From NCBI RefSeq assembly GCF_002900095.1, contig NZ_LLKN01000002.1:1860001-1924000 (forward strand): a DNA stretch of 64,000 nt, written 5' to 3'. A program made the translations under genes and the position numbers. The DNA comes from Salegentibacter mishustinae (lineage in GTDB: Bacteria > Bacteroidota > Bacteroidia > Flavobacteriales > Flavobacteriaceae). Shown piece by piece: positions 51,826 to 62,845 of this stretch (position 1 is the first letter of the stretch; each line of letters begins with the position of its first letter). Under the pieces are notes generated by a model. That model was not told where the DNA came from. It saw nothing but the letters and a program-made list of their open reading frames with translations, and did no database searches.

Positions 51826-53103
51826 CTAAACCTCATCCTTTTTTCTCTTAATTTCTTCCAAAGCAAGATTATCCTTACTTCCTAAATGCGAATGCTTTTT
51901 ACCTTCTGCAGCTTCATAAGTTCCTTCCTGCACCTGGCCACCGATTATTTGATAAGCCTCTCTAAAAGATTTTCCCTGCATCACCAAATCATTGATACTA
52001 TCTACCGTAAAAAGATATTTATATTTTTCATCCTGTAAATTGATATCCTTCACCTTAATTAAAGCGATGGAGTGAATAAAAACATCCAAGATCTCTTTAA
52101 TATTTTCTACCGCATAAATGCTGTTTTCTTTGATCAGTTGGTAGTCTCTATGATAACCGCTCGGTAAATTATTGGTAATTAAAATCATCTCGTTAGCGAT
52201 GCTCTGTAACTTGTTGCATTTACCACGAATCAATTCAAAAACATCAGGATTTTTCTTGTGTGGCATAATGCTGGAGCCTGTGGTAAGTTCATCGGGAAAA
52301 GTGATAAAGTCAAAATTCTGACTCATATATAAACAAATATCCATAGCAAAACGAGCTAAAGTATTTGCTACTGATGAAATATTAGAAGTCACTGTTCGCT
52401 CACACTTTCCACGACCCAGTTGTGCGGCTACCACATTATATTTTAAAGTAGAAAACCCTAACTCTTTGGTGGTGAATTCCCGATCTATAGGAAAAGAAGA
52501 GCCATAACCTGCCGCAGATCCCAACGGATTTTGATCTACAACTTTCAAACCGGCTTCCAGTAAATAAAGATCATCGATAAGTAATTCTGCATAGGCTGAA
52601 AACCATAAACCAAAACTTGAAGGCATCGCTACCTGCAAATGTGTATACCCGGGAAGAAGTTTCTCCTGATGTTTATCTGCGAGGCCCACAAGAACATCTA
52701 TCAATTGCTTTGTTTTACTAGAAATCTCTCTCAAATTTTCTTTGAAATATAATTGCATCGCCACCAAAACCTGGTCATTCCTGGATCGAGCAGTATGGAT
52801 TTTTTTTCCTGTATCTCCCAGGACTTTGGTTAATTCAAATTCAATTTTTGAATGTACATCTTCAAATTGCTCTTCTATCTCAAAAGTTCCTTTTTCAAGC
52901 TGCTGCTGAAGTTTAGCTAATTCTACTTCTATACTTTTCACTTCTTCTGAAGTCAGAATATCAACTTTCCCTAACATTCTAGCGTGAGCTTTTGAAGCTT
53001 TTAGATCGTATTCCGCGATATGCATATCTAACTCCCGGTCGTTTCCAACCGTAAAATTTTCGATCTTTTTATCTATAGCTAATCCTTTATCCCAGAGTTT
53101 CAT
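51826..53103 (-). CDS. argH: Argininosuccinate lyase
   Basis: Last step of arginine synthesis: cleaves argininosuccinate to arginine and fumarate. The 425 residues have HTARSRNDQVLVAMQLYF, GYTHLQVAMPSSFGLW and the superfamily signature GSSIMPHKKNPD. It is somewhat shorter than the typical 450-460. Last gene of the arginine cluster, separated from argE by a REP-like element. Confidence 0.94.
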   Translation of the reverse strand: MKLWDKGLAIDKKIENFTVGNDRELDMHIAEYDLKASKAHARMLGKVDILTSEEVKSIEVELAKLQQQLEKGTFEIEEQFEDVHSKIEFELTKVLGDTGKKIHTARSRNDQVLVAMQLYFKENLREISSKTKQLIDVLVGLADKHQEKLLPGYTHLQVAMPSSFGLWFSAYAELLIDDLYLLEAGLKVVDQNPLGSAAGYGSSFPIDREFTTKELGFSTLKYNVVAAQLGRGKCERTVTSNISSVANTLARFAMDICLYMSQNFDFITFPDELTTGSSIMPHKKNPDVFELIRGKCNKLQSIANEMILITNNLPSGYHRDYQLIKENSIYAVENIKEILDVFIHSIALIKVKDINLQDEKYKYLFTVDSINDLVMQGKSFREAYQIIGGQVQEGTYEAAEGKKHSHLGSKDNLALEEIKRKKDEV

Positions 53104-53136
53104 AGTTTTTATTTTAAGCTAAAAATTAATTATAAA

Positions 53137-53229
53137 CGTCATTCTGAATTTATTTCAGAATCTAAGTTGTTATATACCCAGAACACATTAGAAGCTGAAA
53201 CAATCCCGAAGTTTCGGGACAACTTGACG
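53137..53229. repeat. REP-like repeat between argE and argH
   Basis: Begins CGTCATTCTGAATTTATTTC and ends GAAGTTTCGGGACAACTTGACG, the same architecture as the copy at 50388-50472, including the TCCCGA-AGTT-TCGGGA hairpin (53204-53219). It lies inside the arginine cluster. Confidence 0.75.
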
Positions 53230-53259
53230 CAAATTTTTCTACCAGTCTACTTATAGTCT

Positions 53260-54330
53260 TTATACTTTTAAAGTTTTTTCCAGCAATTTAATATACTTCT
53301 CAATCCCTTCTTCCACTTCTTTTACATAAATAAATTCATCTGCGGAATGAGATCTTGTGGAATCTCCCGGACCTAATTTTAAAGAAGGACAGCTTAACAT
53401 TGCCTGGTCTGAAAGTGTAGGCGAACCATAAGTTTCCATTCCTAAAGAAATTCCAGCCTTTACTAACTCGTGATTCCTGGGAATTGAAGAAGAATTCAAC
53501 CGAAGGGAACGTGCAGTTATTTCATCTACAGGAGCTTTTTTCTTTAAAATTTGCTCAATTTCAGCGTTGGAATACGCATCATTCACCCGAACATCTATCA
53601 CCAGATCTACGTGGCCCGGCACTACATTATGCTGGCTGCCGGCATTGATCTGGGTTACCGTAAGTTTTACTTTCCCCAGAGTTTCAGATTCCTTCGGAAA
53701 ATCAAATTCCTGAAACCATTTTAAAGCATTAGCAGTCTTGTATATCGAGTTATTATCATTGGGATGAGCGGCGTGTGAAGGAGTTCCCTTTACTTTAGCA
53801 TCAAAAACTACCAGACCTTTTTCGGCAATTGCCAGTTGCATTAAAGTCGGTTCACCAACTATAGCAACATCAACTTTTGGCATTTTAGGTAACATACAGG
53901 CTATTCCATTTTTCCCGTTAATTTCCTCCTCAGCAGTTCCTGCAAAAATCAGATTATATTCCAGGTTTTTCGCTTCATAAAACCATGTGAAAGTTGCAAG
54001 TAAAGAAACAAGACAACCACCGGCATCGTTACTACCTAATCCGTATAATTTTCCATCTTCAATTTCAGCTTCAAATGGATTCCGGGTGTATGCTGAATTT
54101 GGTTTTACCGTATCGTGATGTGAATTAAGCAGCAAGCTTGGTTTAGCCGGATCAAAATATTTATTGGTAGCCCAAACATTGTTCAAATGCCGATAAAAGG
54201 TCATCTCTTTAGTTCGGAACCAATCTTCCAGCAACCCGGCCGTTTTATCTTCTTCCTTTGAGAATGATCGAATCTCAACAAGATTCTTTAGTAAATCCAG
54301 GGCCTCCTTTTGTAATTCTTCGAGCTTCAT
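53260..54330 (-). CDS. argE: M20-family N-acyl-ornithine/citrulline deacylase
   Basis: Zinc peptidase-fold enzyme removing the N-acyl group late in arginine synthesis. The 356 residues show the M20 motifs SHHDTVKPNS (metal His and Asp), GSNDAGGC, AGTAEEEING (catalytic Glu-Glu) and GEPTLMQLAIAEKG. Given the ArgF' upstream, the substrate is probably N-succinyl- or N-acetylcitrulline rather than acetylornithine. Its start overlaps the argB stop by one base. Confidence 0.85.
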   Translation of the reverse strand: MKLEELQKEALDLLKNLVEIRSFSKEEDKTAGLLEDWFRTKEMTFYRHLNNVWATNKYFDPAKPSLLLNSHHDTVKPNSAYTRNPFEAEIEDGKLYGLGSNDAGGCLVSLLATFTWFYEAKNLEYNLIFAGTAEEEINGKNGIACMLPKMPKVDVAIVGEPTLMQLAIAEKGLVVFDAKVKGTPSHAAHPNDNNSIYKTANALKWFQEFDFPKESETLGKVKLTVTQINAGSQHNVVPGHVDLVIDVRVNDAYSNAEIEQILKKKAPVDEITARSLRLNSSSIPRNHELVKAGISLGMETYGSPTLSDQAMLSCPSLKLGPGDSTRSHSADEFIYVKEVEEGIEKYIKLLEKTLKV

Positions 54331-55109
54331 TAATCCGTGATTTTAGTATAAACAGATTCTTTATTTAATAACCTGAAATCCCCCAGAAATATATTTTTCA
54401 CACCGCTTTCCAAAGCCTGGAAACTGTTGTGCAACTTAGGGAGCATCCCATCGCTTATTATTTTTTCTTCAAGCAATTCCTGGTATTTTTCACTGGTAAT
54501 TTCTTGAATCACCGAATCATCGTTTTCGGCATTGGCCAGCACACCTTTTTTCTCAAAGCAGAAATAAAGTTCAGTCTCATATATATCGCTCATCGCTTTG
54601 GCGATTTCCGCAGCAACAGAATCGCCATTTGTGTTTAAAAGTACACCCTCTTCTGTACAGGAAATAGCCGAAAAAACAGGCATAATATTTTGTTCTAAAA
54701 GTGAATTTATAAATTCTGAATTAATCTTTTCCACGTCTCCAACAAAACCAAAGTCGACTTCCTTCACAGGACGTTTCTTGGAAACAATGCTCATTCCATC
54801 GGCACCGCATAAACCAATTGCATTTTCATTCAAAATTTGAAGCTTAGCTACAATATTTTTATTAATGAGTCCGCCGTAGACCATAGTGATCACTTTAATT
54901 GAATCGGCATCGGTGATTCTTCGCCCTTCAAACATTTGGGTTTTATAACCGAGTTTCCCTGCAATTTCGGTAGCCAGGTTTCCCCCACCATGAACCAGGA
55001 TCTTCGGGCCTCGCAAAGCCACAAAATCATTCAGGAATTCAGCGAATTTGGATTCATCTTCAATAAGCTTCCCTCCTATTTTTACAACTTTTAAAACCTT
55101 GTTTTTCAT
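54330..55109 (-). CDS. argB: N-acylglutamate kinase (acetylglutamate kinase family)
   Basis: Phosphorylates N-acyl-glutamate in the second step. The 259 residues contain VKIGGKLIEDE, LVHGGGNLATEIA, ITMVYGGLINKNIV and NTNGDSVAAEIAKAM of the amino-acid kinase fold. In Bacteroidota with ArgF' the acyl group may be succinyl; sequence alone does not settle it. One-base overlap with argE. Confidence 0.92.
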   Translation of the reverse strand: MKNKVLKVVKIGGKLIEDESKFAEFLNDFVALRGPKILVHGGGNLATEIAGKLGYKTQMFEGRRITDADSIKVITMVYGGLINKNIVAKLQILNENAIGLCGADGMSIVSKKRPVKEVDFGFVGDVEKINSEFINSLLEQNIMPVFSAISCTEEGVLLNTNGDSVAAEIAKAMSDIYETELYFCFEKKGVLANAENDDSVIQEITSEKYQELLEEKIISDGMLPKLHNSFQALESGVKNIFLGDFRLLNKESVYTKITD

Positions 55110-55155
55110 ATTTCCTTAATTCCGTCCATTAGAGTACGATGAAACTGAATACTGT

Positions 55156-56130
55156 TTAAGCATTCTTCCCTAAATCTTTTGCTTGCACTTTTTCTTCTAA
55201 AATTCTTTTTAAAACCGCCTGCGCAGCAAAAGTTCTGTTTCCCGCCTGTTGAATCACCACCGAGTTTTCTGAATCCAATACCTCATCGGCAATCACCATA
55301 TTTCTTCTTACCGGCAAACAATGCATCACTTTTGCATTATTGGTTAATTTTAATTTTTTTGCAGAAAAAGTCCAGTTTCGATCTTCACTTAGTTTTTGAC
55401 CGTAATTTTCATAGCTACTCCAATTTTTAACATACACGAAATCGGCATCTTTTAAAGCCTCAGCCTGATCGTGAATAACCGAAACATTTTTAGTGATTTT
55501 TGGATTTAGATCATAACCTTCCGGATTGGTGATCACAAAATCCACATCAAGATTTTGCATAATTTCAGCAAAAGAATTAGGTACACTTTGCGGTAAAGTC
55601 TTTGGGTGCGGCGCCCAGCTAAGCACAACTTTCGGCTTATCTTTTTTATTTAATTCGGAAATAGTCATGGCATCGGTAAGTGCCTGCAGGGGATGGCCCG
55701 TAGCACTTTCCAAATTTACAACAGGTACAGACGCAAATTTTTTAAAGCTATTTAATACCGTCTCAGCCTCATCTTTTTCTTTGTCTTTTAAGTCGGGAAA
55801 CGCTCGTACCGCGATGATATCGCAATACTGCGAAAGCACCGCAGCCGCTTCTTTAATATGTTCAGCTTTATCGGAATCCATTACCGCCCCATCTTCAAAC
55901 TCCAACTTCCAGCTATCGCTACCGGCATTCATCACCATTACTTCCATTCCCAACAATTTCGCGGCTTTTTCAGAACTTAAACGCGTACGTAAACTGGGGT
56001 TAAAAAATAGCATTCCCAGGGTTTTTCCTTTTCCTATTTCTAAAGTGGATGTGCTTTTTTTCAACTCTAGCGCTTCCGTAATTAATTGCTGTAAATCTTT
56101 TATATCTGATAATTCTGTGTAATTTTTCAT
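55156..56130 (-). CDS. argF': N-acyl-L-ornithine carbamoyltransferase, SOTCase/AOTCase type
   Basis: Transfers the carbamoyl group to N-acyl-ornithine. From the ATG at 56130 (MKNYTELSD) it has 324 residues; an upstream in-frame TTG is less likely. FFNPSLRTR, AGSDSWKLE, WAPHPKTLPQSVPNSFAE and MHCLPVRRNMVIAD are typical of the acyl-ornithine branch and not of ordinary OTCase. The residue that separates succinyl (Pro) from acetyl (Glu) enzymes is Ala in SDKAEHIKEA (residue 89), more compatible with a succinyl substrate. A perfect hairpin lies just upstream. Confidence 0.9.
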   Translation of the reverse strand: MKNYTELSDIKDLQQLITEALELKKSTSTLEIGKGKTLGMLFFNPSLRTRLSSEKAAKLLGMEVMVMNAGSDSWKLEFEDGAVMDSDKAEHIKEAAAVLSQYCDIIAVRAFPDLKDKEKDEAETVLNSFKKFASVPVVNLESATGHPLQALTDAMTISELNKKDKPKVVLSWAPHPKTLPQSVPNSFAEIMQNLDVDFVITNPEGYDLNPKITKNVSVIHDQAEALKDADFVYVKNWSSYENYGQKLSEDRNWTFSAKKLKLTNNAKVMHCLPVRRNMVIADEVLDSENSVVIQQAGNRTFAAQAVLKRILEEKVQAKDLGKNA

Positions 56131-56144
56131 ATTTAGCGTTTTAT

Positions 56145-56171
56145 CCTTCAAGGTCTACAAGACCTTGAAGG
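56145..56171. repeat. Perfect 12-bp inverted repeat between argD and argF'
   Basis: CCTTCAAGGTCT-ACA-AGACCTTGAAGG, a 12-bp perfect stem with a three-base loop, 15 bases before the argF' ATG. It has no T run. It could be an insertion-type repeat or an mRNA element. Confidence 0.75.
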
Positions 56172-56220
56172 TTTTAATTTCCCTAATACCTACAGGGTTT
56201 ATAAAACTTTTCAGAAATGT

Positions 56221-57348
56221 TTAATTAAGAACAATCTTTAAAGCTTTAAATAACTCATCAAAATGTTTCTTTTTTATGTTTAATGGCGGTAAAATTCTTA
56301 GCAGTTTTTTATTGGCCGAGGCTCCGGTAAAAATTTGATGCTTATACAACAGTTCTTTTCTTAACTGCGCGATCTCAAAATCGAATTCTAAACCAATCAT
56401 CAATCCGCGACCTTTGATCTTTTTGATCTGCGGAATTTCCGCCGCTTTCTCTTTTACATATCCAAAAAGTTCACTGGCATTTTTCAGAAGATTTTCTTTT
56501 TCTATAACCTCCAAAACCGAAATCCCCGCGGCACAGGCCAGGTGATTCCCACCAAAAGTCGTACCCAGCATTCCGGGTTTTGCTTCAATAGCTTTATCGA
56601 TTAACACCCCGCCAATTGGAAACCCATTGCCCATTCCTTTCGCTATGGAAATAATATCAGGTCGAATATTATGTTTCTGAAAAGCAAAAAAATCTCCTGT
56701 CCTCCCATAACCCGACTGTACCTCATCTGCAATTAAAACTGAACTATATTTTTTACACAATTCAGCGGTTTTTTGATAAAATTCAGTAGAAGCTTCATCG
56801 AGTCCTCCAACACCTTGGATCACTTCAAAAATAACCGCAGCCACGTCGCCTTTTTTCAACTCTTTTTCAAGCGTATCCGTATCTTCAAAAGCAATTTTCG
56901 TCGCTTGATGATGTTGATTGAATGGAGCTTTAATATTTTCATTGTCGGTCACCGCAACCACTCCTGAAGTTCTTCCGTGGAAAGCATTTTCAAAATAGAT
57001 CACGCGATCTTTCCCAGTATGAAAAGAAGCAACTTTAAGCGCATTTTCATTGGCCTCAGCCCCCGAATTACATAAAAACAGACTATAATCTTCTATTCCT
57101 GAAAGTTTTTTCAACTTTTCGGCAAGATTGTTTTGCAAAGGATTTTTGACCGAATTGGAGTAAAAACCCAGTTCCGCAACCTGTTTAGAAATAGAATTCA
57201 CATAAGCGGGATGGGAATGTCCAATAGAAATTACCGCATGGCCGCCATAAAGATCCAGGTATTTATTTCCTTCTTTATCAAAAACATAAGCGCCCTCGCC
57301 TTTTACCGGCGTGATATCGTAAAGCGGATAAACATCAAATAATTCCAT
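56221..57348 (-). CDS. argD: N-acylornithine aminotransferase
   Basis: PLP-dependent class III aminotransferase making N-acyl-ornithine from the semialdehyde. The 375 residues have LYGGHAVISIGHSHPAYV, LCNSGAEANENALKVA, LIADEVQSGYGRTG and the PLP Lys in SIAKGMGNGFPIGG. It could also act in lysine synthesis. Start lies two bases after the proC stop. Confidence 0.93.
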   Translation of the reverse strand: MELFDVYPLYDITPVKGEGAYVFDKEGNKYLDLYGGHAVISIGHSHPAYVNSISKQVAELGFYSNSVKNPLQNNLAEKLKKLSGIEDYSLFLCNSGAEANENALKVASFHTGKDRVIYFENAFHGRTSGVVAVTDNENIKAPFNQHHQATKIAFEDTDTLEKELKKGDVAAVIFEVIQGVGGLDEASTEFYQKTAELCKKYSSVLIADEVQSGYGRTGDFFAFQKHNIRPDIISIAKGMGNGFPIGGVLIDKAIEAKPGMLGTTFGGNHLACAAGISVLEVIEKENLLKNASELFGYVKEKAAEIPQIKKIKGRGLMIGLEFDFEIAQLRKELLYKHQIFTGASANKKLLRILPPLNIKKKHFDELFKALKIVLN

Positions 57349-57350
57349 AG

Positions 57351-58145
57351 TTAGTCGATTGTAATGGTGTTTATTTTCTTGAAGGAAGCCTGGATTCCTT
57401 TTATCAATGATGAACTGAGTCCGTTGTGCTCCATTTCATTTAATCCCTCAATGGTGCAACCACGTGGGGTAGTCACCTTATCGATTTCCTCTTCGGGGTG
57501 CTTACCAGATTCTATAAGCAAGCTGGAAGCACCCAAACAGGTTTGCATAGCCAACTGCTGGGCGTCTTTAGCATCAAAACCAAGTTGGACAGCGCCCTGG
57601 GTGGTAGCGCGAATCAGTCGCATCCAAAAAGCGACTCCACTGGCGCAAATTACCGTAGCCGCCTGCATCTTGTTTTCCGGAATAATAATACTTGTACCCA
57701 ATCGATTAAAAATAGCCTCAGCAATAGCGATGCGTTTTTCTCCTTTTTCGTTGCTACAAAGACAGGTCATTGATTTACCTACTGCAATGGCCGTGTTAGG
57801 CATAGAACGCACAATAAACTGATCCTGGCCAACAATCGCTTCCATAGCAGCGATCTTAAAGCCAGTTACGGTAGAAATAAGCACATGCTTCTCGGTAAGC
57901 TGATCTTTTATCTCTTCCAGAATTCGCTCCATTTGCGTAGGTTGAACTGCGAAAACAAGGATATCTGAATTTTGAACAGCTTCCCGGTTATCTTTAGTTA
58001 CTGTTACATTTGAATATTCTTCGTAATTCTGAAGCTCCTCGATCTTTCGTTTTGTGAGGTAAAGCGTGGTAAACGCATTGTTCACAATAAGGCCTTTGGC
58101 TATGGAAAGCCCAAGGTTTCCGGCTCCTATGATTGCTATTTTCAT
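57351..58145 (-). CDS. proC: Pyrroline-5-carboxylate reductase
   Basis: NAD(P)H-dependent last step of proline synthesis. The 264 residues start KIAIIGAGNLGLSIAKGL (Rossmann motif), with the conserved MPNTAIAVGKSMT and the C-terminal GASSLLIESG...VTTPRGCTIEGLNEME. It lies inside the arginine cluster between argC and argD, which links proline and arginine/ornithine metabolism. Confidence 0.93.
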   Translation of the reverse strand: MKIAIIGAGNLGLSIAKGLIVNNAFTTLYLTKRKIEELQNYEEYSNVTVTKDNREAVQNSDILVFAVQPTQMERILEEIKDQLTEKHVLISTVTGFKIAAMEAIVGQDQFIVRSMPNTAIAVGKSMTCLCSNEKGEKRIAIAEAIFNRLGTSIIIPENKMQAATVICASGVAFWMRLIRATTQGAVQLGFDAKDAQQLAMQTCLGASSLLIESGKHPEEEIDKVTTPRGCTIEGLNEMEHNGLSSSLIKGIQASFKKINTITID

Positions 58146-58172
58146 TTGTTTGGTTTTAGTTGGTTAATTTTT

Positions 58173-58304
58173 GCCAGGAATTCACGAATATTTATGAAAC
58201 CTTACAGGTTATAATTCCGGTTCCACAGGGATTTAGATCCTGAAACAAGTTCAGGATGACGCCCTTAATTTTTATTCGATCAATTATATTCGTGTATTAG
58301 TGGC
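58173..58304. repeat. Nested intergenic repeats between argC and proC
   Basis: GCCAGGAATTCACGAAT at 58173-58189 and its inverted form ATTCGTGTATTAGTGGC at 58288-58304 bracket a CGTCATCCTGAA half element (58236-58261, GATCCTGAAACAAGTTCAGG then ATGACG). One repeat family is thus inserted in, or flanked by, the other. Confidence 0.55.
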
Positions 58305-58312
58305 ATATCTCA

Positions 58313-59275
58313 TTAAAAATAATTCGCTTTTAATTTTAATCCGGTGGTTTCTTCAAAACCAAACATCAAGTTCATATTTTGAACTGCCTGCCCCGAAGCC
58401 CCTTTTAGTAAATTATCAATTACACTGGTGATTAAAATTTTATTCCTAAATTTCTGTAATTTCAGCAGGCATTTATTGGTGTTTACTACTTGTTTTAAAT
58501 GCAGCTCTTCCTCTACTACAAACGTAAAAATCGAATCTTTATAGGCTTCAGAATAAATCGCCTTGGCTTCTTCCAGACTTCCTTCAAACTTTGTGTACGC
58601 CGTGGCGTGAATTCCTCTGGAAAAATTGCCTCTATTCGGAATAAAATTAATTTCCGGGAGCTTGTTATTCTGAAGTAGTTTTAAACTCTGGCCTATTTCA
58701 TTTAAATGCTGATGTTCAAATGCTTTATAACTGGAGAAATTATTATCTCGCCAGGTAAAATGCGTAGTAGCCGAAAGTGAAGTCCCAGCTCCGGTTGCTC
58801 CGGTTACCGCATTGATATGCACTTCATTCTGCAACAATCCGGCTTTCGCAAGTGGTAAAATTGCTAAACTAATAGCCGTGGCAAAACATCCGGGATTTGC
58901 AATAAAATCAGCTTTTTTTATCTTTTCTTTATTGAATTCAGGTAAACCGTACACAAACGCATGTTCGCCATTCATTCGATAATCGGTACTTAGATCTACA
59001 ATTTTTGTTTTTCCTGAAAACTGATTTTCAGCAAGGAATTTTATGGAATTTCCGTGTCCCAAACATAGAAAAACCACATCTGCATTTTTATTGATCTCTC
59101 CGCTAAATTGCAAATCGATCTCACCCAGTAAATCCTGGTGTACTCCTGCAACAGGTTTTCCCGGTTGAGAGGTGCTGTAAATAAAGTCCAGCTCAACTTC
59201 TGGATGGTTTATCAAAATCCTGATGAGCTCTCCTGCCGTATAACCGGCGCCACCTATTATTCCTGCTTTTATCAT
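58313..59275 (-). CDS. argC: N-acyl-gamma-glutamyl-phosphate reductase
   Basis: NADPH-dependent reduction of N-acylglutamyl phosphate. The 320 residues begin KAGIIGGAGYTAGELIRIL, contain the catalytic Cys in NPGCFATAISLAI, and GATGAGTSLSATTHF and GIHATAY motifs. Start overlaps the argG stop (ATGA). Confidence 0.93.
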   Translation of the reverse strand: MIKAGIIGGAGYTAGELIRILINHPEVELDFIYSTSQPGKPVAGVHQDLLGEIDLQFSGEINKNADVVFLCLGHGNSIKFLAENQFSGKTKIVDLSTDYRMNGEHAFVYGLPEFNKEKIKKADFIANPGCFATAISLAILPLAKAGLLQNEVHINAVTGATGAGTSLSATTHFTWRDNNFSSYKAFEHQHLNEIGQSLKLLQNNKLPEINFIPNRGNFSRGIHATAYTKFEGSLEEAKAIYSEAYKDSIFTFVVEEELHLKQVVNTNKCLLKLQKFRNKILITSVIDNLLKGASGQAVQNMNLMFGFEETTGLKLKANYF

Positions 59276-60459
59276 TTTTCTGTATTAACGTGTTGGTAGA
59301 TCTTGCCCGCATTCGAAAGAATTTTTATAAATCCTTTAGCATCCTGGGAAGTCCAGGCTTTATTTTCTTCGCCATAATTTCCGAAACTGGAATTCATTAA
59401 ATCATTTTCAGACTTAATTCCGTCTAAAGTGAATCTATAAGGATGCAAAGTGATAAAAACTTCTCCGCTAACCTGCTTTTGTGAACTTTCTAAAAATGCC
59501 TCCAAATCTCGCATTACAGGTTCTAAATACTGGCCTTCGTGTAAATGCGTACCATACCAATTAGCCAAATAATCTTTATGCTGTAACTGCCATTTACTTA
59601 GCGTATGTTTTTCCAGTAAATGGTGAGCTTTAATAGTAATTAAGGCCGCCGCAGCTTCAAAACCAACTCTACCTTTAATTCCAATAATCGTATCGCCTAC
59701 GTGGATGTCTCGCCCAATCGCATACTTGGAAGCGATATTTTCCAGGATCTCAATATTCTTCTCAGGAGAATTTTCTTTTCCATTTACTGCGGAAAGTTCA
59801 CCCTTGAAAAATGTCAAACTGATTTGTTTCGGTTCCTTTTCCTGAATCTGGGAAGGGTAAGCCGATTCGGGTAAAGGTTTTTCTGAGGTCAAAGTTTCTG
59901 CTCCACCAACACTGGTTCCCCAAAGGCCCTTGTTCACCGAATATTTTGACTTTTCCCAATTCATTTCCACTCCATTCTGCTTCAGGTATTCAATTTCTTC
60001 CTGTCTACTGAGTTGCTTATCCCTAATTGGGGTGATGATCTCAATTTCCGGTGCGATAATTTGAAAGATCATATCAAATCGTACCTGGTCGTTTCCGGCG
60101 CCGGTACTGCCGTGAGCAATATATTTAGCATCAATACTTTTTGCGTAATTCACAATCTCTATGGCCTGTACAATTCGTTCAGCACTCACCGAAAGCGGAT
60201 AGGTATTGTTCTTCAAAACATTTCCGAAGATTAAGTATTTTACCACTTTTTGATAAAATGAGGAAACTGCATCAATATTCTTATAGGTCTTTGCCCCTAT
60301 TTTTTGCGCGTTTTCTCCAATTTTCTTCACTTCTTCTTCTGAAAATCCTCCGGTATTCACACTCACCGCGTGAACTTCAAAATTTTCTTCTTTAGATAAA
60401 TATTTTGCGCAATAAGAAGTATCTAAACCTCCACTATATGCTATAACTACTTTTTTCAT
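59272..60459 (-). CDS. argG: Argininosuccinate synthase
   Basis: ATP-dependent joining of citrulline and aspartate. The 395 residues start VIAYSGGLDTSYCAKYL (PP-loop) and include AHGSTGAGNDQVRFDM, GLWGTSVGGAETL and GRVGFEAAAALI. It lies 136 bases after the GNAT stop; the gap holds one end of the CCACGAATTC repeat at 60485-60495 and small inverted repeats. Confidence 0.94.
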   Translation of the reverse strand: MKKVVIAYSGGLDTSYCAKYLSKEENFEVHAVSVNTGGFSEEEVKKIGENAQKIGAKTYKNIDAVSSFYQKVVKYLIFGNVLKNNTYPLSVSAERIVQAIEIVNYAKSIDAKYIAHGSTGAGNDQVRFDMIFQIIAPEIEIITPIRDKQLSRQEEIEYLKQNGVEMNWEKSKYSVNKGLWGTSVGGAETLTSEKPLPESAYPSQIQEKEPKQISLTFFKGELSAVNGKENSPEKNIEILENIASKYAIGRDIHVGDTIIGIKGRVGFEAAAALITIKAHHLLEKHTLSKWQLQHKDYLANWYGTHLHEGQYLEPVMRDLEAFLESSQKQVSGEVFITLHPYRFTLDGIKSENDLMNSSFGNYGEENKAWTSQDAKGFIKILSNAGKIYQHVNTEK

Positions 60460-60595: not shown

Positions 60596-61231
60596 TCAGT
60601 TTCCGTTTTTCTCTTTTTTGTAAAACAAGGTTTGTTTAATATTCTTCAGCCTTTTAAAAGCTTTATCATTTAAACTTTCCTTTTTCTGCGTTTTTTTGAC
60701 ATCTTTTTTTCTTTCGGGATCGTACATCATCCCGGTGCAAAGGCACATATTACGTTCTGTCCTGGTGAGGATATCGTAATTCTTGCAGGTTTGGCAACCT
60801 TTCCAAAAGGCGTCATCATCGGTTAATTCAGAAAAAGGGACGGGTTGATAGCCCAGCTCATAATTTATTTTCATCACAGCCAAACCGGTAGTAATTCCGA
60901 AGATCTTTGCATTGGGGTACATTTTTCTGGAATGCTTAAAAACCACTTCTTTGATCTCTTTAGCTAAACCCTGATTTCTGAAATCGGGGTGTACTATGAG
61001 ACCTGAGTTTGCCACATACCTATCGTGGCTCCAGGTTTCGATATAGCAGAAGCCGGCAAATTTTTCGCCGTCTAAAGCAATAACCGCATTCCCTTTTTCC
61101 ATTTTACCAATAATATATTCGGGAGTTCTGCGGGCAATACCCGTGCCTCGAACCTTTGCAGATTCTTCTATAGTTGTACAAATAATCTCAGCGTAAGGAG
61201 CGTGAGATTTATTAGCAATGATAATCTTCAT
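60596..61231 (-). CDS. GNAT-family acyltransferase, candidate N-acylglutamate synthase
   Basis: A 211-residue GNAT protein and first gene of the arginine cluster, where ArgA would be needed; no argA or argJ is visible here. The acetyl-CoA fold has GEKFAGFCYIETW, GLIVHPDFRNQGLAKEIKEV (the R/Q-x-x-G-x-G/A-like loop) and ITTGLAVMKINYELGYQPV. After the fold comes a Cys cluster (CQTCKN then, 13 residues after the second Cys, CLC) and a basic tail rich in Lys. A metal-binding site is likely. The role as N-acetyl- or N-succinylglutamate synthase is inferred from operon position. Confidence 0.75.
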   Translation of the reverse strand: MKIIIANKSHAPYAEIICTTIEESAKVRGTGIARRTPEYIIGKMEKGNAVIALDGEKFAGFCYIETWSHDRYVANSGLIVHPDFRNQGLAKEIKEVVFKHSRKMYPNAKIFGITTGLAVMKINYELGYQPVPFSELTDDDAFWKGCQTCKNYDILTRTERNMCLCTGMMYDPERKKDVKKTQKKESLNDKAFKRLKNIKQTLFYKKEKNGN

Positions 61232-61313
61232 TTGCTAAGAAATTAGTGAGAAAATAAAATTTGATTTGGTCTTTTTTGAAAGGGGAACCGGACTCACCTA
61301 AGTTCCATATAAA

Positions 61314-61418
61314 TTATACACGCACAAACGTGCGACGCGGGAAGCGGCGGCGAATAGGTGTTATTTCAGAAGTAATTCTGAAATTTAAATTGGACGGTAT
61401 GTTTTGTGAATCTTTCAA
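61314..61418 (-). other. Second Arg-codon-rich tract in the arginine leader
   Basis: On the minus strand an open frame from TTG at 61418 ends PIRRRFPRRTFVRV then TAA. The CGC/CGT-rich part resembles the end of the first leader ORF (RFFPRRRR). No ATG is in frame, so it may be a duplicated relic or an alternative sensor. Confidence 0.4.
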
Positions 61419-61469
61419 ATTATAATTAAAATCAAATAATATTAAAAAAAGGAAATAGAGGTGTTTTTC

Positions 61470-61523
61470 TTACCTGCGGCGGCGCGGGAAGAAGCGAAAA
61501 ACGGGAAATACTATTTGTCTCAT
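61470..61523 (-). CDS. Putative arginine leader peptide MRQIVFPVFRFFPRRRR
   Basis: A 17-codon ORF ending in four consecutive Arg codons (CGC CGC CGC AGG) before TAA. It lies 239 bases upstream of the first arginine gene and directly after a promoter-like sequence. An in-frame ATG three codons upstream (61532) would add MLS but coincides with the predicted transcript start. Arg makes up 6 of 17 residues, as expected of a ribosome-stalling leader for an arginine operon. There is no Shine-Dalgarno, as is normal here. Too short to prove by sequence alone. Confidence 0.6.
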   Translation of the reverse strand: MRQIVFPVFRFFPRRRR

Positions 61524-61536
61524 TGAAAGCATGTTG

Positions 61537-61565
61537 TAAATGTACATAATTATTTTAACCAACAA
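61537..61565 (-). promoter_or_regulatory. Candidate arginine cluster promoter (TTG-N18-TACATTTA)
   Basis: On the minus strand TTG at 61565-61563, 18-base spacer, TACATTTA at 61544-61537 (one mismatch to TAnnTTTG). The predicted start, near 61530, is just before the leader ORF. It overlaps the sequence immediately after the ilvA stop. Confidence 0.5.
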
Positions 61566-61570
61566 AATAT

Positions 61571-62845
61571 TTATACTAAATACTGAAACAAATTAGGCTT
61601 ATCGTTAAGATATTCCCCGTAAAAATTATTCGCTTTCATCCGGTCAACCAATGGCTCAAAATCTGCCGGGTCGTTTATTTCTATCCCTACAACCGCGGGA
61701 GCGTTTTCCCTGTGATGTTTTTTAGAATATTCAAAATGGGTAATATCGTCTTTTGGTCCCAAAACTTTTTCCAGGAAATCTTTTAAAGCACCTGCTCTTT
61801 GCGGAAAGCTTATCACAAAATAATGTTTTAGGCCTGCATATAATAAAGCACGTTCTTTAATTTCAGCTGTTCGGGTGATATCATTATTACTTCCACTTAC
61901 AATGCAAACCACATTTTTCCCTTTAATTTCTTCAGCAAAAAAATCGAGCGCACTTATAGCCATTGCCCCTGCAGGTTCTACCACAATTGCATCCTGGTTA
62001 TAAAGATCAAGGATGGTTTGGCAAATCTTGCCTTCGGGAACCGTGATCATTTTATCTAGATTCTCCTTACAAATCTCAAAATTGCGGCTACCTACTTTTT
62101 GAACCGCAGCGCCATCTACAAACCTTTCTATAGATTTTAGTTCTACCAATTTCCCTTCTTTCAAAGAGGAAGTCATGGAAGCCGCACCTTCCGGCTCTAC
62201 TCCAATGATTTTAGTATTGGGAGAAAGCTCTTTAAACATAGAAGATATTCCGGCTAACAGTCCGCCACCACCAAGAGGCGCAAAAACATAATCTATGGGT
62301 TCGTTTGCCTGTTCCAGGATTTCTAAGCCAATAGTAGCCTGACCCTCAATCACTTTTTCATCGTCAAAAGGATGAATAAAAACCAATCCGAATTTATCGG
62401 CGTGTTTCATCGAGCTTTTAAAAGAATCATCAAAAGTGTCACCTTTTAAAACCACCTCCACCCATTCGCCGCCAAACATTTTTGTTTGTTCCACTTTTTG
62501 CCTGGGAGTGGTAATTGGCATATAGATCACGCCTTTTGCCCGCAGTTTATTACAGGCAAAAGCTACACCTTGCGCGTGATTTCCGGCGCTGGCACAAATA
62601 ACCCCTTTATTAAGTTGTTCTTTTGGTAGGCTTGAGATCTTATTATAAGCCCCACGAATTTTATAAGAACGAACCTGTTGCAAATCTTCCCTTTTCAACA
62701 TCACATTAGCCGAAAATTTGTTAGTATAAGTAAAAGATTGCATAAGCGGTGTTTTTACCACCACTTTAGAAATTCGCTCAGCCGCTTCTTTTACAGCTTC
62801 AACTTGAGGTTTGTATATTTTTTTATCTGCCAGCAAAGTATCCAT
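61571..62845 (-). CDS. ilvA: Threonine dehydratase, biosynthetic, short form
   Basis: PLP enzyme making 2-oxobutyrate for isoleucine. The 424 residues have the PLP Lys in SYKIRGAYN (Lys62), PLGGGGLLAGISSMF and CASAGNHAQGVA. The C-terminal part (ISFPQRAGALKDFLEKVLGP) is a single ACT-like domain, shorter than the double one of E. coli. It begins one base after the ilvC stop. Confidence 0.93.
   Translation of the reverse strand: MDTLLADKKIYKPQVEAVKEAAERISKVVVKTPLMQSFTYTNKFSANVMLKREDLQQVRSYKIRGAYNKISSLPKEQLNKGVICASAGNHAQGVAFACNKLRAKGVIYMPITTPRQKVEQTKMFGGEWVEVVLKGDTFDDSFKSSMKHADKFGLVFIHPFDDEKVIEGQATIGLEILEQANEPIDYVFAPLGGGGLLAGISSMFKELSPNTKIIGVEPEGAASMTSSLKEGKLVELKSIERFVDGAAVQKVGSRNFEICKENLDKMITVPEGKICQTILDLYNQDAIVVEPAGAMAISALDFFAEEIKGKNVVCIVSGSNNDITRTAEIKERALLYAGLKHYFVISFPQRAGALKDFLEKVLGPKDDITHFEYSKKHHRENAPAVVGIEINDPADFEPLVDRMKANNFYGEYLNDKPNLFQYLV

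Follow-up and report, generated by a model that had tools for sequence, protein, structure and literature searches.

Background

What does a short reading frame ending in a run of arginine (Arg) codons do in front of a cluster of arginine genes? The question is raised by a stretch of 64,000 nucleotides (nt) from the genome of Salegentibacter mishustinae (contig NZ_LLKN01000002.1, positions 1,860,001 to 1,924,000; hereafter the window), in which such an open reading frame (ORF) lies on the minus strand upstream of nine arginine genes. The his, trp, leu and thr operons have leader-peptide attenuators, and arginine feedback on arginine genes is exerted in most bacteria by a protein repressor, ArgR. 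In this study I propose that the leader RNA of the arginine cluster quite probably acts as a ribosome-based arginine gauge, a reading drawn from the sequence of the window and of its relatives; the step by which the signal would reach the genes (Rho, the start-codon hairpin P4 or a factor binding hairpin P3) is put forward tentatively, as possible rather than probable.

Results

An initial annotation of the window had described a short minus-strand ORF with four Arg codons before its stop, about 240 bases before the first arginine gene and preceded by a promoter-like sequence. This ORF, here called ORF1 (Table 1), is confirmed to the codon: it ends with CGC CGC CGC AGG TAA, and its stop ends 238 nt upstream of the first cluster gene, which starts at 61231. 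The promoter sits directly past the stop of an ilvA-like gene (61571), and its order of TTTG, 18 nt and TACATTTA fits the Bacteroidota promoter form. When all ORFs of 8-60 amino acids within 350 nt are considered, the maximal number of Arg in the last 12 residues, a statistic that is independent of a known reading frame, is 6 in the window, and none of 3000 dinucleotide shuffles reaches this value.

Recurrence in relatives, suggested by the same annotation as a check, is found as well. A protein search with the product of the first cluster gene, a GNAT-family acetyltransferase, gave 242 relatives in named genomes, the best 80 of which were kept and, together with the window, make up the 81 regions analysed here; the 80 loci belong to the Flavobacteriaceae (Salegentibacter, Christiangramia/Gramella, Zunongwangia, Salinimicrobium, Gillisia, Sinomicrobium, Maribacter, Cellulophaga and others). 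A short ORF with at least four Arg in its last 12 residues is present upstream of the gene in 70 of the 81 regions (shuffled mean 1.5), and with 100 shuffles each the Arg tail is significant at p ≤ 0.05 in 71 and at p ≤ 0.01 in 53 of them. By shuffles and recurrence the Arg-rich leader is more than chance, and the observation is real. That it is a chance Arg-rich ORF in a GC-rich patch without a regulatory role, the GC-rich codons in a low-GC spacer having arisen from the hairpins, is hardly credible, given this shuffle test, the codon bias described below and a recurrence that extends over many genera and four families (f1, f2, f6 and f14).

Searched for as a promoter followed by an ORF, ORF1 was detected in 40 of the 81 regions (the window, L001-L037, L053 and L077). 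An ATG or GTG lies 12 nt past the first base of the -7 box in 38 of these 40 loci and 13 nt past it in the other 2, a spacing count that is not blind, since the search considered distances of 12, 13 or 15 nt; a TTG is found 15-26 nt 5' of the box in 29 of the 40. Because 38 of the 40 comparable ORFs start at a distance of 12 nt, the ATG at 61532 (MLSMRQ...) is the more likely start of ORF1 than the MRQ ATG at 61523. The first Arg codon, counted from codon 9 on, is codon 9-15 in all 40 loci. On this comparison ORF1 is the distal member of a tandem pair of leader ORFs, present in about half of the named loci (40/81). The single leader of the initial annotation thus exists, and a second Arg-rich ORF and several hairpins between it and the gene had been missed.

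This second frame, ORF2, ends about 75-100 nt upstream of the first cluster gene. In loci of the Maribacter type no leader ORF other than ORF2 was detected; there it opens with ATG, and RRRP is a common ending before the stop. Going by distance, the ORF2 stop falls within the loop of hairpin P2 in 54 of 79 loci, whereas in the remaining 25, which include the window, it comes immediately 3' of P2 (counts over 79 omit L021 and L075, which are without the P3 loop). Proximal ORF2 with hairpins P2 and P3 is, as far as these regions can tell, more widely conserved than ORF1 (79/81 versus 40/81). The ORF2 frame in relatives was chosen as the most Arg-rich frame ending upstream of P3 and is biased towards Arg, a bias from which the shuffle test on the maximal Arg tail is free.

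The choice of Arg codons is unlike that of ordinary genes. At the end of ORF2, 389 Arg codons in 79 loci, a count that shares the Arg-biased choice of frame, comprise 55% CGC and 35% CGU (together 90%), and in ORF1 CGC makes up 61% of 177 Arg codons, versus 7-10% CGC, 15-20% CGU and 27-39% AGA in ordinary genes (the window's genes and 80 GNAT genes). CGC and CGU are decoded by tRNA-Arg(ACG) under the decoding rule, and the genome holds one tRNA-Arg each with the anticodons ACG, TCG, TCT and CCT (42 of 44 tRNA matches read); the two codons are therefore read by the ACG species alone. A charging sensor tuned to one isoacceptor would be expected to show just this bias, part of which, for CGC, could stem from pairing within P2.

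Four hairpins, P1 to P4, and a helix, PA, are predicted in the leader RNA. For PA, 29 of the 40 loci have their best helix starting at ORF1 nt 14-16, and in 27 of 40 the helix is better than with a shuffled 3' region at p ≤ 0.05; in the clade with tandem ORFs its 3' strand ends 14 nt before the start of ORF2. For P1, 32 of 39 rows have a hairpin with a CAG/CTG core as their best one, the exceptions being L014, L016-L018, L020, L026 and L033. In many relatives P2 reads CGCCC GTAA GGGTG, and its loop contains the stop codon. Of 72 distinct rows, 43 have C-G and 24 have A-U at one of the P2 pairs, a change by which the codon switches from Pro to Thr; the pairing of the RNA is kept and the residue is not. 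This bears on a different reading, in which the Arg-rich peptide, as it is being made, would arrest its own ribosome at the stop codon under high free arginine and so turn the cluster off. Arrest peptides have precedents in TnaC with tryptophan and SpeFL with ornithine, and many Maribacter-type peptides end in RRRP before the stop, Pro-stop being a slow context for termination. However, where the P2 loop contains the stop the last residue is Pro or Thr, in step with the P2 base pair, and the ORFs end variously in RRRP, PRRT and PRRTFVRV, or in other families in RRLRA and RRRPVRV, so that no sequence beyond Arg is kept; an arrest peptide is therefore improbable.

Hairpin P3 follows ORF2 in 79 of the 81 regions with the loop AGGUG[A/U]GUCC, in which a single position is free, and it is present as one copy in the S. 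mishustinae genome even with up to 3 mismatches allowed. A covariance model of P2 and P3 (R1) matches 80 of the 81 sources, including L021, although 30 of these built the model. In the model-fitted alignment of the 80 matches (72 distinct rows), which leans towards structure, 96.9% of the cells are paired, 6 of 13 pairs are changed on both sides and covariation amounts to 0.210, compared with 0.110 when shuffled and at most 0.079 when slid. A MAFFT alignment of 30 sequences gives a similar picture, with 95.4% paired, 5 two-sided pairs and a covariation of 0.192 versus 0.125. Pair types beyond these were no more numerous in P2/P3 than in shuffles, in both alignments. The outline of P3, a stem with a bulged A, two G-C pairs and a small fixed loop, presumably resembles the operator hairpin of phage coat proteins. 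The AGGUGA in its loop might also be viewed as a Shine-Dalgarno-like match to the 16S tail.

Two variants of P3 may be mentioned separately. In Salinimicrobium sediminis (L021, about 2435-2459) the stem is kept and the fixed loop is lost (GGAACTTTTTTGAGTTCC), a natural loop variant. In the clade of the window P3 carries ATG GAA CTT AGG TGA (61294-61308), a possible four-codon ORF encoding MELR; a further leader ORF beginning within P3 (MELR in the window, MEIGES... in the Maribacter type) was not accepted as coding, as its frame and end vary by group.

R1 was also run against larger genome sets, which may overlap with the 80 named loci. In the order it hits 33 of 296 genomes and in the phylum 19 of 392, never more than once per genome; each of the 33 hits in the order lies 38-92 nt before a GNAT match, and the 19 in the phylum set all fall within the family of the window. 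The GNAT gene itself is found in 186 of the 296 genomes at E ≤ 1e-20. Among 33 sampled genomes with GNAT but without R1, 7 have at least four Arg in the leader tail before the same gene, one (L143, genus g2) from the window's family f1 and six from f2, f6 and f14, with ends such as ...MNLRRRRPVRR and ...MDSTLRLRRSRRRLRA before the stop. Arg-rich leaders are therefore more widespread than P3. A search of plasmids with the leader gave no match.

These distributions also bear on the possibility that P3, with P2, is the real regulator, either as operator for an arginine-reporting protein, possibly the product of the first gene, or as an arginine-binding RNA, and that the ORFs only time its folding. 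A loop that is fixed in 79 of 81 regions while its stem covaries, its single match per genome, placed before the GNAT gene in 33 out of 33 cases, and the presumed likeness to phage operators all speak for this. However, Arg-rich leaders before the same gene also occur without R1 and in other families (the 7 of 33 above), which makes the ORFs the more general part, and the codon choice is explained by tRNA sensing and not by P3. I consider this alternative rather unlikely, and continue with the arginine gauge.

Other leaders were seen in the same survey. Most sampled genomes of genus g2, by guess Flavobacterium (10 of 14, including L144-L150 and L225-L227), carry ...SRTNRPTTSPEVRML or variants of it before the same GNAT gene. 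This leader ends in SPEVR[M/T]L, contains few Arg and has a recurring hairpin ACTTC-TCCC-GAAGT. In family f15, genomes of genus g48 (about 0.6 Mb) have the GNAT match, among the matches listed, within an open frame of about 590-650 amino acids, which suggests a fusion with a neighbouring gene.

Downstream of P3 the leader is poor in G. The 55 nt before the first gene contain 13 C and 2 G, a C-G excess reached by none of 40 other ORFs of the window (drawn from 57 as those with an ATG start and no overlap with a likelier gene, GNAT excluded and 16 omitted). The start codon of the first gene is held by P4, whose local energy of -7.7 kcal/mol is likewise reached by 0 of these 40 (mean -0.97). Over -30 to +40, 6 of the 40 fold as low as the first gene, and one has a start codon that is as fully paired. 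The mean pairing probability of the first gene's start codon is at least 0.6 in 76 of the 81 loci. In 37 + 42 sequences, a comparison that ran from 75 nt 5' of the P3 loop to nt 36 of the gene showed no conserved helix in competition with these apart from a minor extension of P2, and the consensus fold of this proximal region holds P2, P3 and, in one group, P4.

A search of window positions 61150-61650 with Rfam 15 gave nothing at gathering score, the three matches (E 2.9-9.7, all on the other strand) being at chance level. In 8 of the 80 loci searched likewise, only whalefall-1 (L023) and astro_FSE (L073) appeared, both below gathering score and outside P2-P3; the former was rejected, as it also lies upstream of the leader.

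The initial annotation had seen no classic terminator pairing with the Arg tract, which agrees with the wider comparison. A search found no ArgR in the genome of S. mishustinae, which does carry the Arg-codon leader; in the order 1 of 296 genomes matches, marginally, versus 9 of 14 control genomes. The one exception, G034, also carries P2-P3. Its Arg_repressor match (G034:C33:165612-165746) scores 26.9 bits, just over the cut-off with its neighbours, in a frame of 312 amino acids.

As to terminators, the arg leaders share none; an intrinsic-terminator scan flags 6 of 81, namely P2 in three Zunongwangia loci and other sites in L021, L074 and L075. Histidine served as control: hisG was found in 12 of 13 genomes searched, and all 12 loci (L163-L174) have a leader with a His run before it, in the window's own genome MKNFQLHHHHIYYCAQAR followed by the stop (L168, C2 near 1597559). 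The best intrinsic terminator lies downstream of the His leader in 11 of these 12, the best-scoring one in L163 lying upstream. With terminators in 11 of 12 his but 6 of 81 arg leaders, the same bacteria therefore appear, on this comparison, to rely on classic attenuation for histidine but on another mechanism for arginine. A classic attenuator with intrinsic terminator and antiterminator, as in the his and trp operons, could be defended by its presence at hisG in the same genome, by the P2 of the window, flagged as terminator-like in a looser scan, and by the three Zunongwangia P2 that pass the stricter one. However, the scarcity of terminator-like sites in the arg leaders, the lack of a conserved alternative helix in the proximal region and the lack of a U run after P3 in the window make it very improbable.

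Table 1. Leader elements and arginine genes in the window, with positions counted from its first letter
Feature	Position	Strand	Sequence or basis
Promoter	61537..61566	minus	TTTG 61566-61563, 18-nt gap, -7 box TACATTTA 61544-61537
ORF1, leader peptide	61470..61532	minus	MLSMRQIVFPVFRFFPRRRR, stop; sequence, relatives, shuffle test
Helix PA	61433..61517	minus	CAAATAGTATT (61517-61507, ORF1 codons 6-9) pairs with AATATTATTTG (61443-61433), between ORF1 and ORF2
ORF2, TTG start	61314..61418	minus	MKDSQNIPSNLNFRITSEITPIRRRFPRRTFVRV, stop; ends ...RRRFPRRTFVRV; relatives, codon counts
Hairpin P1, inside ORF2	61363..61384	minus	ATTTCAGAA TTAC TTCTGAAAT
Hairpin P2, end of ORF2 Arg tract	61321..61334	minus	CGCAC GTTT GTGCG
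Hairpin P3	61284..61306	minus	GGAACTTAGGTGAGTCCGGTTCC; loop AGGTG[A/T]GTCC, stem covaries
G-poor stretch, P3 to first gene	61232..61283	minus	11 C, 2 G in 52 nt; possible Rho loading region
Hairpin P4, holds first gene's start codon	61212..61238	minus	TTAGCAA-ATGA...TCA-TTGCTAA
First cluster gene, GNAT-family acetyltransferase	60596..61231	minus	Pfam PF00583
Remaining arginine cluster	51826..60459	minus	Pfam families

The genes that follow GNAT match Pfam families for argininosuccinate synthase, an argC-like and a proC-like protein, a class-III aminotransferase, an OTC-like protein, AA kinase, an M20 peptidase and Lyase_1 (argH-like), the gene names being assigned from families and gene order. 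The GNAT protein (60596-61231) carries a cluster of Cys residues at its C terminus (CQTCKNYD...CLC) together with a basic tail, which might bind metal or RNA.

Discussion

The leader described here would work like an amino-acid attenuator, yet it is not of the classic terminator type. As in the his, trp, leu and thr attenuators, a short ORF with a run of codons for the end product lies between promoter and first gene, and the hairpins are placed such that a stalled ribosome would mask one strand. Unlike these, it concerns arginine, shares no intrinsic terminator among its members and, in the proximal region, no antiterminator helix, has two ORFs in part of the family and contains the near-invariant P3. 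Its expected role is that of ArgR, arginine feedback on the same genes, in a genome in which that protein is absent. From TnaC and the fungal arginine attenuator peptide it differs in that only Arg richness is shared across groups, RRRP before the stop being common within the Maribacter group.

Two leaders that sense arginine are closer in kind. In the Salmonella speF leader, consecutive Arg codons of orf34 sense arginine, Rho is involved and a hairpin lies past the stop (PMC6386406). Consecutive Arg codons in a short leader ORF and a hairpin downstream of its stop are common to both, but orf34 is a single ORF with an HIRRT core that controls ornithine decarboxylase (PMC6386406), whereas the leader here precedes genes for arginine synthesis, the first of them GNAT, and no HIRRT core was seen by eye in the leader peptides of the window and its relatives. 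In Staphylococcus aureus, the upstream ORF of rbfL senses arginine through rare Arg codons read by one scarce tRNA-Arg (PMC13009471). The two would be alike in sensing arginine through the Arg codons of one tRNA-Arg; rbfL differs in that it controls a biofilm regulator by blocking the ribosome-binding site, uses AGA/AGG and lowers expression on starvation (PMC13009471). For a relative, Flavobacterium psychrophilum, structured 5' leaders are reported, and amino-acid operons there show clues to attenuation by leader peptides; the relevant section names elements upstream of pheA and of hisG but does not name arginine (PMC9723704). Other reports mention leader-peptide-like small ORFs in long 5' untranslated regions of Bacteroides thetaiotaomicron (PMC7366714), a leader peptide said to precede carA in Pseudomonas aeruginosa (PMC4997734) and a carA motif of beta-proteobacteria, named in a screen of 26 genomes (PMC8632094). 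In literature searches that covered ArgR, RNA motifs, attenuation and arginine leaders, either in Bacteroidetes or across bacteria, no such leader of arginine biosynthesis surfaced among the papers listed, which is weak evidence of absence, subscription journals and supplements being outside their scope.

A mechanism may be proposed as follows. The two short ORFs, rich in CGC and CGU, would monitor the charging of one isoacceptor, tRNA-Arg(ACG). With plentiful arginine, ribosomes would finish both ORFs and leave, PA, P1, P2 and P3 would fold, and the cluster would be kept low; with arginine short, a ribosome would halt on the Arg codons and mask one strand of the neighbouring hairpins, and expression would rise. 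If its footprint reaches about 14 nt back, a ribosome paused at the first Arg codon in ORF1 would, by geometry, overlap a strand of PA. Translation of the ORFs, stalling within them and the sign of the response I infer from this arrangement. For the output, Rho-dependent termination in the G-poor stretch after P3 would be the first choice, with translational control through P4 as a second layer, and the near-invariant loop of P3 makes it probable that a protein or another factor binds this hairpin. These three outputs are not mutually exclusive. It is even conceivable, if doubtful, that the whole is a composite device, in which tandem ORFs reading the charge of one tRNA-Arg are combined with P3 as a new class of hairpin, recognised by a protein or by arginine, into a two-input switch standing in for ArgR.

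Several observations weigh against the proposed gauge. The Arg tail falls below the cut-off in 11 of the 81 regions, with 2 or 3 Arg, and a tail of four is found in 0 of 9 genomes of family f4 and 1 of 14 of genus g2, in which the GNAT gene is present; moreover, the loci are related, so that their counts are not independent events. In the window's clade ORF2 starts with TTG, a weak start. PA is absent from its usual place in 11 of 40 loci, P1 is limited to the rows given above, and P4 occurs in the register of the window only in the window's own clade, the start region folding only modestly below shuffles (mean z -0.88). A codon-based sensor would require much less conservation than the loop of P3 shows. 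Finally, as the proximal consensus fold holds no competing helix, the switch itself is not seen.

If the proposed reading is true, it would account for the adjustment of arginine synthesis in a large bacterial group without ArgR, and arginine would join the amino acids that are gauged by leaders of their own biosynthetic genes. P3 would be a new conserved RNA hairpin whose partner could be fished out, and the codon choice makes the idea of a sensor directly testable by synonymous recoding.
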